Of a stretch of 64,000 bases of DNA, positions 26,919-47,135 are shown piece after piece (positions within the stretch are counted from its first letter, which is position 1; each line of letters starts with the position of its first letter). Source of the stretch: Thermobifida alba (lineage in GTDB: Bacteria; Actinomycetota; Actinomycetes; Streptosporangiales; Streptosporangiaceae); assembly GCF_023208015.1 (NCBI RefSeq), contig NZ_CP051627.1, forward strand, positions 1,240,001 through 1,304,000, written 5' to 3'. The notes beneath the pieces are model-generated. The model was not told the DNA's origin. It ran no database searches and worked only from the letters and a program-made list of their open reading frames with translations. A program made the translations under genes and the position numbers.

Positions 26919-27797
26919 CTAGCCGAGGCCCAGGTCGACACGGGCCAGACGCCGCGGATCGGCCAGCAGGTCGATGGCGGTGATCCTGCCGTCGACGACG
27001 GTGAACCCCAGCACCGACCGCAGCTTCCCCTCCTCGAAGTCCGCGAGGCCGACGGCTCCGTTGACCAGGACCACCTCCACGTCGCACGCCGCACCGGGAC
27101 CCCGGTGGTAGGCGGAGGCCTGCCCGGCCACGGCCGCGGCACCGACGATGCTGCGCACCCCGCCCTCCCCGGTGTCGGCCCGCAGCACCACGTCGGGGGC
27201 GAGGACGGACAGCAGCGCGGCGAAGTCGCCGCCGCGCGCCGCCGCCAGGAACGCCTCGACGACCTCGCGCTGGCGGGTCGGATCCGGTCGGGTGGGCGGC
27301 ACCGTGCCCCGCAGACGCTGCCGCGCGCGGCTGGCGAGCTTCTTGGCGGCGTCCGGGGAACGGTCGACGATGTCGGCGATCTGCGCGAACGGCACCCCGA
27401 ACAGGTCGTGCAGCACGAACGCCAACCGCTCGGCGGGACTCAGGGAGTCCAGCACCACCAGCAGCGCCAACCCGACCGCGTCGGCGACCAGCGCCTGCTG
27501 CTCGGGGGTGTCGCCGTCGTCGCGGCTGACCACCGGATCGGGTAGACGCAGCCGCAACGGGTCCTCACGTCGGGCGGTGCGGGCACGGAGCATGTCCAGG
27601 CACACCCGGCCGACCACCGTGGTCAACCAGCCGCCCAGGTTGTCGATGACGTCGGTGTCGGTCCGGTTGAGCCGCAGCCACGCCTCCTGCACGGCGTCGT
27701 CGGCCTCGTCGAGGGAACCGAGCATCCGGTAGGCCACCGCCCTGAGGCGGGCCCGGTGCTCCTCGAACTGCTCGGTCACGAACTCGTTCACGTCCAC
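26919..27797 (-). CDS. ECF41-type RNA polymerase sigma factor (SigJ-like, SnoaL tail)
   Basis: A 292-residue ECF sigma factor from the GTG at 27797. Region 2 (HRARLRAVAYRMLGSLDEAD then DAVQEAWLRL) and region 4 (LSPAERLAFVLHDLFGVPF) are followed by a C-terminal SnoaL/NTF2-like domain (about residues 190-290), the ECF41 arrangement in which the tail replaces an anti-sigma factor. ATG 27830 is excluded because it lies upstream of the transcription start predicted from the left promoter. The gene is divergent from an FAD oxidoreductase, and ECF41 genes are known to sit beside oxidoreductase, epimerase or carboxymuconolactone decarboxylase genes. Confidence 0.88.
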   Translation of the reverse strand: MDVNEFVTEQFEEHRARLRAVAYRMLGSLDEADDAVQEAWLRLNRTDTDVIDNLGGWLTTVVGRVCLDMLRARTARREDPLRLRLPDPVVSRDDGDTPEQQALVADAVGLALLVVLDSLSPAERLAFVLHDLFGVPFAQIADIVDRSPDAAKKLASRARQRLRGTVPPTRPDPTRQREVVEAFLAAARGGDFAALLSVLAPDVVLRADTGEGGVRSIVGAAAVAGQASAYHRGPGAACDVEVVLVNGAVGLADFEEGKLRSVLGFTVVDGRITAIDLLADPRRLARVDLGLG

Positions 27798-27819
27798 GGT
27801 CCATTCTTCACCAAAGGGC

Positions 27820-27918
27820 TTCCACCGCATTGACGGGGCGGGGGCAGCGAAGGTGACAGCGAAAAAGCCGCGGATTGCCGGTCACCTTCGCTGCCCCCGC
27901 CCCGTCAATGCGGTGGAA
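27820..27918. promoter_or_regulatory. 38-bp inverted repeat forming mirrored ECF promoters
   Basis: Perfect 38-bp arms (27820-27857 and 27881-27918) around a 23-bp spacer. Each arm, read outward, has GGTCACC at its inner end (-35), a 16-nt spacer and CGTC (-10; right arm 27903-27906, left arm 27832-27835). This fits the published ECF41 promoter TGTCACA-N16-CGTC. The two arms therefore give identical promoters for the sigma gene and the FAD oxidoreductase. An RNA hairpin is the alternative reading. Confidence 0.75.
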
Positions 27919-27983
27919 CCGTGGCGGAAACGGTCGGCGGAACCGACCGGCCACGAGGAGACCACGAGTAGTGAGGAGCCCAC

Positions 27984-29297
27984 ATGTCCGCACCCGACCT
28001 CGCCACCGCGGTCCGCGGTACCGTGCTGCGTCCCGGCGACGACGGTTTCGCCGCAGCGGCCCGCGCCTGGAACCTGGCGGTGGAGCAGCCGGTGGCCGCC
28101 GTGGTGGAGGCCGCCGACGCCGACGACGTCGCCGCCCTGGTGCGCTACGCCCGCCGCACCGGCCTGTCCGTGGCCGCCCAGCCCAACGGTCACGGCGCCT
28201 CCGGCGACACCGACGGGGTGATCCTGCTGCGCACCGGCCGCCTCGACGGCGTGGAGGTGGACCCCGACCGGCGCACCGCCCGCCTCGGCGCGGGAGTCCG
28301 CTGGGAACAGGTGCAGCGAGCCGCGGCACCGCACGGCCTGACCGGCCTGGCCGGCAGCATGCCCCGCGTCAGCGTGGTCGGCTACACCCTGGGCGGCGGC
28401 CTGTCCTGGTTCGGTCGCGCCCACGGCTGGGCGTCCGACTCGGTCCGCTCCTTCGACATCGTCGACGCCGACGGCGGCCGGGCACGGGTCGACACCGCGA
28501 GCGACCCCGACCTGTTCTGGGCGCTGCGCGGCGGCGGAGGCGACTTCGCCCTGGTCACCGCCGTCGAGATCGACCTGCACCCCGCGCCGGGCCTGTACGG
28601 CGGACGCCTGGTGTGGCCCGCCGAGCGCACCGCCGAGGTGTTCGAGGTGTTCCGCGAGATCACCGAGACCGCGCCACGCGAACTGTCGGTGTGGTTCCAG
28701 CGGCTCCAGTTCCCCGACGCCCCGCCCCTGGTGGCCGTGGACGCCGCCTACCTGGGGGGGGACACCGAGGCAGGCAAGGCGGCGCTGGCCCGCCTGGACG
28801 GCATCGGCGGCGCGATCACCGACACGCGCACCGTGCTGTCGGCGGACCGCCTGGGCGAGATCACCGCCGAACCCACCGACCCCGTGCCGGGGCTGGGGCA
28901 CGCCGAACTGCTCTGCGGACTGGACGAGCAGACGGTGCGGGCCGTGGTCGACAGCCCGGTCGCACCGCTGCTCACCATCCAGGTACGGCACCTGGGCGGC
29001 GCACTGGCCGAGCCCCGGCCCGGCGGCGGCGCGCGCGGCCCGGTCGCCGAACCCTACCTGCTGTACCTGATCGGCCTGGGCCTGCCGCACCTGCGCGAGG
29101 CCGTGGCCGGGCGGATGACCGAACTGGTGGAGGCACTCGACGGTCGCACCGGCACGGCCAAGCCCTACACCTTCCTGGCACCGGGAGAGCGGGCCGCCGA
29201 CGCCTTCGACGCCCCCACCCTGGACCGGTTGCGCACGATCAAGCAGGACCGCGACCCGCACGGGGTGTTCCGGGCGAACTTCCCGGTCCTGCGTTGA
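27984..29297 (+). CDS. FAD-binding oxidoreductase (BBE-like)
   Basis: A 437-residue PCMH-type flavoprotein. The FAD domain has VRYARRTGLSVAAQPNGHGA at residues 52-71, where the usual RSGGHS has become PNGHGA; the histidine is the expected covalent FAD site. GYTLGGGLSWFGRAHGWASD is the family glycine block, and the C-terminal DPHGVFRANFPV matches the BBE domain. It would oxidise alcohol or sugar-type substrates. Its promoter duplicates that of the ECF41 sigma gene, so it is the predicted main target of that sigma factor. GAGGAG before ATG. Confidence 0.9.
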   Translation: MSAPDLATAVRGTVLRPGDDGFAAAARAWNLAVEQPVAAVVEAADADDVAALVRYARRTGLSVAAQPNGHGASGDTDGVILLRTGRLDGVEVDPDRRTARLGAGVRWEQVQRAAAPHGLTGLAGSMPRVSVVGYTLGGGLSWFGRAHGWASDSVRSFDIVDADGGRARVDTASDPDLFWALRGGGGDFALVTAVEIDLHPAPGLYGGRLVWPAERTAEVFEVFREITETAPRELSVWFQRLQFPDAPPLVAVDAAYLGGDTEAGKAALARLDGIGGAITDTRTVLSADRLGEITAEPTDPVPGLGHAELLCGLDEQTVRAVVDSPVAPLLTIQVRHLGGALAEPRPGGGARGPVAEPYLLYLIGLGLPHLREAVAGRMTELVEALDGRTGTAKPYTFLAPGERAADAFDAPTLDRLRTIKQDRDPHGVFRANFPVLR

Positions 29298-30797: not shown

Positions 30798-30835
30798 CGC
30801 AGCGTGGCCTGCGACCGGTCGCAGGCCACGCTGCG
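30798..30835 (+). terminator. 38-bp perfect palindrome after the aminotransferase
   Basis: Arms of 19 bp (CGCAGCGTGGCCTGCGACC at 30798-30816 with its complement at 30817-30835) with no spacer, 44 nt after the stop codon. It would form a very stable hairpin and probably terminates transcription. A DNA binding role is also conceivable. Confidence 0.55.
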
Positions 30836-47086: not shown

Positions 47087-47135
47087 CACCGGTTCGTTTC
47101 TCACCCCGGTTTCCGGGGTGGGAAACGAACCGGTG
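47087..47135 (+). terminator. Long hairpin after the WWEE gene
   Basis: CACCGGTTCGTTTC-T-CACCCCGG pairs with its complement across a 3-nt TTT loop: 22 perfect pairs and one G-T, 5 nt after the stop. It probably terminates the transcript and, by symmetry, the convergent gene at 47167. Confidence 0.75.

Follow-up and report, generated by a model that had tools for sequence, protein, structure and literature searches.

The window analyzed here, a 64,000-nt stretch of the Thermobifida alba genome, contains two divergently oriented genes that flank a perfect inverted repeat. The left-hand gene (26919..27797, minus strand) has a GTG start and encodes a 292-aa protein that domain, family and alignment matches identify as an ECF41/SigJ-like sigma factor, while the right-hand gene (27984..29297, plus strand) encodes a 437-aa FAD_binding_4 oxidoreductase that is, judging from its domain match and upstream motifs, the likely target of the sigma factor. 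The sigma protein matches Sigma70_r2 (50.7 bits), Sigma70_r4_2 (44.7 bits) and SnoaL_2 (27.3 bits, cut-off 27), so that a SnoaL-like extension at the C-terminus comes after regions 2 and 4, the architecture that marks ECF41 factors. At the place of WLPEP, the linker motif between regions 2 and 4 that was named for ECF41 (PMC3426412), it reads RLPDP, and the consensus of its aligned relatives is lPdP. By sequence, the solved protein nearest to it is SigJ of M. tuberculosis (5xe7, E 5.6e-44), a member of group ECF41 (PMC8999054). The best NCBIfam model, SigJ PRK09636.1 (NF007214), scores 257.7 bits, below its cut-off of 271, and we therefore label the protein SigJ/ECF41-like rather than SigJ. 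A second SigJ-type sigma gene in this genome (L322; G000 C1:2678000-2682500) clears this cut-off with 292.9 bits; at about 2101-2176 of L322, an ECF41-like motif pair stands face to face at the 3' end of that sigma gene. The FAD protein matches PF01565 (FAD_binding_4) with 95.7 bits, which makes it a COE-type neighbor of the kind found beside ECF41 genes, and FAD_binding_4 is included among the ECF41 partner domains (PMC3426412). It is distantly related to BagK/FevA1 (266.6 bits versus a cut-off of 800). ECF41 genes are characterized by having no anti-sigma gene beside them; the two further neighbors scanned here are an EamA transporter and an aminotransferase.

Between the two genes, positions 27820-27857 and 27881-27918 are complementary at 38 of 38 bases and enclose a 23-nt spacer, bearing out the 38-bp arm identity claimed by a first-pass annotation of this DNA. 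A search of the window for inverted repeats, allowing up to 120 bp between the arms, returned 31, of which this is the longest, and among the 25 longest of the 31 the next perfect repeat has arms of only 19 nt. Other strong repeats in the window lie at 47087-47135 (23-nt arms, 96% complementary, 3-nt loop) and at 30798-30835 (19-nt perfect arms, loop absent). The motif with which we searched (GTCAC and CGTC) fixes 9 of the 38 arm bases; the remaining 29 are identical too, an outcome to which our own arithmetic assigns a chance of ~2e-9 at 50% per base. The center between the arms (27858..27880) is asymmetric, with a TTTTT run on the sigma side, and outside the arms the sequences diverge, being like sigma leaders toward the sigma gene and like FAD leaders toward the FAD gene. 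Modeled as single-stranded DNA, this stretch is predicted to fold into one long hairpin (-60.5 kcal/mol, z -14.1 versus shuffles). A scan of 27700-28050 returned no terminator-like site and no sigma-70-like site.

Promoter elements and start sites

Each arm carries an outward-reading candidate promoter of the ECF41 type, for which the published form is TGTCACA-N16±1-CGTC (Wecke et al. 2012, PMC3426412). On the minus strand, the motif of the left arm (27832-27857) belongs to the putative sigma-gene promoter, with TGTCACC as the -35 element (27852..27858) and CGTC as the -10 element (27832..27835). On the plus strand, the motif of the right arm (27881-27906) belongs to the putative FAD-gene promoter, with GGTCACC as the -35 element (27880..27886) and CGTC as the -10 element (27903..27906). 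Exactly 16 nt separate the 7-mer from CGTC in both arms, within the published spacing. The first-pass annotation had read GGTCACC-N16-CGTC in both arms; this describes the right arm, and the N16-CGTC part describes both, but the left arm reads TGTCACC and is nearer to the consensus, one base off TGTCACA where GGTCACC is two off. The two CGTC elements are 67 bp apart, with the -35 elements inside.

To place the start sites, we used the S. meliloti ECF41 promoter, whose last base as printed is the ninth after CGTC (PMC6180224) and is taken here to be the transcription start. By this measure, transcription of the sigma gene would begin at 27823 (minus strand), leaving a 26-nt leader to GTG 27797, and that of the FAD gene at 27915 (plus strand), leaving a 69-nt leader to ATG 27984; the predicted starts are 92 bp apart and the transcripts diverge. 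The first base of ATG 27830, a candidate start codon for the sigma gene, is the second base past the -10 element, and since the predicted start is 27823, this codon would not be transcribed. GTG 27797 is preceded by GAAG, aligns with the starts of relatives, and is most likely the true start. The suggestion that ATG 27830 lies inside the promoter and is a wrong start thus agrees with both its position relative to the -10 element and the starts of relatives. It had also been proposed that the two genes are transcribed with equal strength. This is doubtful given that the -35 7-mers differ at their first base and that the upstream flanks differ, the sequence upstream of -35 being CTTTTTCGC on the sigma side versus CGGATTGCC on the FAD side; the sigma-side flank is T-rich.

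Twin promoters and FAD homologues in related genomes

To place the arrangement among its relatives, we searched 341 genomes of the family with a twin pattern, GACG-N17-GTGAC-N10..40-GTCAC-N17-CGTC, and with the reversed pattern as a control. The twin pattern matches in 80 of the 341 genomes, while the control has 0 matches among the 341. Matches in the family sum to 97, of which 92 were taken (five, one each in G168, G175, G270, G274 and G275, were left out); with 2 from contigs outside the family (L036, L043) they make a set of 94 distinct twins. An outward ECF sigma gene lies at most 150 bp away in 69 of the 94 (67 of these 69 in the family), and the other 25, which have no outward sigma match above 140 bits, were excluded from the 69. 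Among 296 genomes drawn from the whole class, the twin pattern occurs in 21 and the control pattern in 2. The gaps from -35 to -35 cluster at 11-14, 26 and 36-37, clusters that seem to follow gene families. The neighbor of the other arm was scanned at four twin loci and is a beta-lactamase-fold protein at two, a CMD protein at one and a short-chain dehydrogenase at one. L210 and L217 have a beta-lactamase-fold protein (PF00144) as the divergent partner of the ECF41-like sigma gene, and ORFs that look similar by eye are present at L212, L216, L242, L244 and L275; this domain is not among the usual ECF41 partners as given in PMC3426412.

Of 110 sigma loci, 107 were counted (L080-L082, partial or distant, were left out), and 47 of the 107 have no GTCAC-N16..18-CGTC in the 250 bp upstream; autoregulation is therefore not general. 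The single motif GTCAC-N17-CGTC, tried as a regulon search in the T. alba genome itself, gives 100 matches versus 36 for its reversed control and is too unspecific to name further targets.

The motif is also associated with the FAD gene. We searched for [TG]GTCAC-N16..18-CGTC within 330 bp upstream of the 30 FAD homologue loci returned (matches exist in 183 of the 341 genomes) and found an ECF41-type motif upstream of 10. It precedes 7 of the 8 homologues from genomes with a sigma factor of the T. alba (G000) clade versus 3 of the 22 others, an association with a Fisher p of 0.0004 (0.0011 without the T. alba genome itself) that is to be read as rough, since only the 30 best sigma loci supplied clade labels. 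In five of seven genomes (G182, G145, G157, G153 and G185) the FAD and sigma genes are unlinked, and the association therefore does not come from linkage alone. Hence, comparison supports the proposal that two outward ECF41-type promoters probably serve one gene each, the sigma gene and the FAD gene. FAD/sigma pairs in G105, G136, G300 and G301 were also considered as orthologues; this was unsupported, since their sigmas fall in another clade of the tree.

In G088, which belongs to another genus, the same divergent gene pair is found (sigma 71% and FAD 72% identity) with both promoters present. In the same-genus genome G003, the FAD orthologue (79%) has the same right-hand neighbor, and no sigma gene is present at the locus (L207; C1:1673500-1678500), the best sigma relative there being 42% identical and located elsewhere. 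At the -35 place G003 reads ACCAA, while the spacer and leader remain FAD-like; this apparent decay of the -35 element is what one would predict had this sigma factor ceased to act there.

Origin of the matching arms

Among the 69 sigma-linked twins, identical arms are found only at the T. alba locus (17/17 spacer and 12/12 leader bases), and identical spacers occur in 1 of all 94 twins, again that of T. alba. The next best sigma-linked twin, in G148, shares 15/17 spacer and 5/12 leader bases, and G088, the closest of the genomes that have this divergent gene pair, shares 10/17 and 5/12; relatives such as G088 thus keep both promoters and not the match between their arms. For arm identity outside the family we took 13 of 14 twins irrespective of a sigma neighbor (the G455 twin was left out), and 0 of the 13 have identical arms, the best reaching 13/17. 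A twin in G293 shares 16/17 spacer bases; it adjoins no ECF sigma match, falls outside the 69, and by eye lies between converging genes and is terminator-like. With identity in 1 of 69 twins and in 0 of 13 outside the family, the full 38-bp match is a feature of this lineage and not a conserved site.

Across the 69 sigma-linked twins, the two arms share on average 8.51 of 17 spacer bases, compared with 7.58 (sd 0.29) after permutation of the right arms within each of three gap classes; 2 of 2000 permutations give a value at least as high. This excess comes from the two narrower gap classes (32 and 12 loci; within 9.13 and 9.83 versus between 6.76 and 6.92) and is reversed in the widest (25 loci; within 7.08 versus between 8.82). 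It is modest and could reflect the preferences of each sigma factor or older copying; arm identity is not supported as a general rule for such pairs.

We favor the reading that a divergent ECF41-type promoter pair was homogenized by lineage-specific copying, most likely from the FAD arm to the sigma arm and by template switching, and consider this reading probable. The divergence of the outer sequences fits the transfer of a patch from one older promoter to another, and G088 and the other 67 sigma-linked twins are imperfect where the arms in this lineage are identical. Template switching is known to perfect imperfect inverted repeats in E. coli reporters (PMC7202029), and genome comparisons have found it at imperfect inverted repeats elsewhere as well (PMC8794818, PMC8604942). 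In the proposed sequence of events, a nascent strand would have switched template at the common -35 sequence during replication and back again in the leader, so that the stretch from -35 to 12 bases past -10 was copied between the arms, most likely from the FAD side to the sigma side. The sigma factor would guide RNA polymerase to both arms, raising its own synthesis leftward by positive autoregulation and turning on the FAD oxidoreductase gene rightward. The sequence, the motifs with their distribution among relatives, and the absence of matching arms from the other twins covered are what is observed; the binding and use of the sites, the start points, and the copying with its direction and mechanism are what we infer from sequence. 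The copying in particular is read from a single genome compared with its relatives, too few to make the event itself visible.

The direction of copying is judged from the leaders and spacers of relatives. The right arm (27881..27918, plus strand), the probable donor, matches the G003 FAD leader at 28 of 35 aligned bases with one 1-base gap, a score that 0 of 1000 shuffles matched, and the homology runs past the arm toward the start codon. Past the left arm (27820..27857, minus strand), the probable recipient, the sequence is like the sigma leaders of relatives. The leader motif of the arm, CGGTGGA, is present at 7/7 in the FAD leaders of G003 and G145, at 6/7 in three and at 3 to 5 in five (n=10), while among sigma leaders (n=8) G157 has 6/7 and the others 3 to 5. 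Mean similarity to the arm does not separate the two sides, with spacer 9.0/17 and leader 5.4/11 for sigma-side promoters (8 genomes) and a tying 8.4/17 and 5.7/11 for FAD-side promoters (10 genomes). Individual spacers come closest to the arm on the FAD side of G003 (13/17), followed on the sigma side by G164 (12/17) and G153 (11/17). Given these tied means and close sigma-side spacers, the direction rests mainly on G003 and on the FAD leader motif. Copying from the FAD side to the sigma side is more likely because the G003 FAD orthologue, which has no sigma gene beside it, resembles the FAD arm. The opposite event, with the sigma arm as donor and the FAD arm as recipient, would account for the arm-like sigma spacers of G164 and G153 and for the GGTGGA at the same offset in the G157 sigma leader; we regard it as unlikely, since the G003 FAD leader aligns along the arm and beyond and has the best-matching spacer.

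Copying between existing promoters also has to be weighed against origins without any correction. The identity might be older than the genus, or an inverted duplication of the FAD promoter might have accompanied the arrival of the sigma gene, as would suit the presence of the sigma gene in 1 of 4 genomes of the genus (at E<=1e-60) and its absence from the G003 locus. The same gene pair in G088, from another genus, has two different arms, however, and these point to two pre-existing promoters; an older or duplicated origin thus seems rather unlikely. It is quite improbable that the whole 38-bp dyad is a selected functional site, acting as a cruciform or hairpin or binding a separate regulator of both genes. 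Such a site would be in keeping with the stability of the predicted hairpin, with a perfect 38-bp identity that is unusual in the window, and with same-locus arms somewhat more alike than shuffled ones. Relatives with both promoters, though, mostly share the promoter elements and about half of the spacer, and the hairpin lies mostly upstream of the predicted starts and would therefore be in neither transcript. We rejected a conserved hairpin or regulator dyad, since matching arms are not kept in relatives and 27700-28050 holds no terminator-like site (nor a sigma-70-like one). The earlier explanation of the extra identity, as gene conversion or a dual role, is accordingly retained in its former half, with which conversion-like homogenization agrees, and not in its latter, since the arms of relatives differ. 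It is very improbable that the motifs arose by chance from GC-rich sequence and that the repeat has nothing to do with the sigma factor: the loose single motif is indeed common in this genome, but the twin motif has no control matches in the family, 69 of 94 twins have an outward ECF sigma gene beside them, and the motif also precedes unlinked FAD homologues.

The locus is a naturally occurring instance of promoter matching: from -35 to just past the predicted start, the promoters of the sigma gene and of its likely target are the same. With the same core promoters, differences in output could trace to the flanks alone. If our copying reading is correct, promoters within a regulon can become alike in a single step, and divergent promoter pairs served by the same sigma factor would be where to look for this.

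Comparison with nested pairs and known systems

Upstream of ECF41-type sigma genes (at L017, L025, L026, L039, L067, L070, L105 and others), motifs also pair in the opposite geometry, with the -10 elements inside: the F motif is followed after 8 bp by GACG-N17-GTGAC. The F motif is present at 60 of the 107 sigma loci. A reverse motif lies within the 90 bp searched downstream of it at 20 of the 60, always at a distance of 8 bp (16 loci) or 9 bp (4 loci). Family-wide, the nested pattern has 60 matches in 57 of 341 genomes and the reversed control has 0; the gap is 8 bp in 34 of the matches, 9 bp in 2 and 24 bp in 8, and some of the remaining matches look like coding matches. In genus g35 (G095, G100, G105, G114, G121, G125 and G128) the gap is 24 bp, not 8. 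The nested reverse motif often ends just before the start codon, over the ribosome-binding site of the sigma gene, and the -35 element of the target often lies between that ribosome-binding site and the start codon. At four nested loci with a clear match, the divergent genes encode CMD proteins (two), a Flavodoxin_2 protein and an NmrA-like protein, and a fifth gave only weak glyoxalase-like matches. So small a gap between the -10 elements would make the two melted regions coincide and leave room for one polymerase at a time. It is a tentative conjecture, possible but not one we would lean on, that self-complementary ECF41 pairs in these two set geometries are, through the short inverted repeat they form, hot spots for template switching that sometimes reset a sigma gene and its target to the same promoter; if so, promoter matching inside a regulon arises in one mutational step.

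Close or shared -10 sequences are a feature of E. coli-type bidirectional promoters. In E. coli, RNA polymerase binds one pseudo-symmetrical site in two orientations, binding is mutually exclusive, and the starts are commonly 18, 10 or 23 bp apart (PMC12825309). Among the literature consulted, these promoters, as described in that source, are the nearest case to the nested geometry. The T. alba locus shares with them symmetric DNA and divergent transcription, but differs in having two complete back-to-back promoters with the -35 elements inside, 67 bp between the CGTC elements and predicted starts 92 bp apart, and thus falls outside the E. coli type.

The circuit itself, an ECF41 factor driving its own gene and an oxidoreductase gene, is of an already described kind. 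In the collection of Wecke et al., the motif is often carried by both divergent genes: of 55 divergent <ECF< >COE> loci, 36 have it before the sigma gene and 41 before the target (PMC3426412). The main text of that paper does not contain the terms inverted repeat, palindrom, bidirectional or gene conversion, and the titles and opening abstract lines returned by searches of open-licence PubMed Central papers included no report of matching arms in ECF41 promoters.

The T. alba locus thus resembles the ECF41 systems of Wecke et al. in the form of its promoters, in the C-terminal extension of its sigma factor and in having FAD_binding_4 among the oxidoreductase partners (PMC3426412), and differs from them in the 38-bp identity of its arms. 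It likewise resembles quasipalindromes corrected by template switching, in which an imperfect inverted repeat becomes perfect, or more perfect, during replication (PMC7202029, PMC8794818, PMC8604942), with the difference that at the T. alba locus the change is deduced from one genome versus its relatives and the arms are two promoters. The divergent promoter arrangement, then, is known for ECF41, and the letter-for-letter match of the arms appears to be what differs here.
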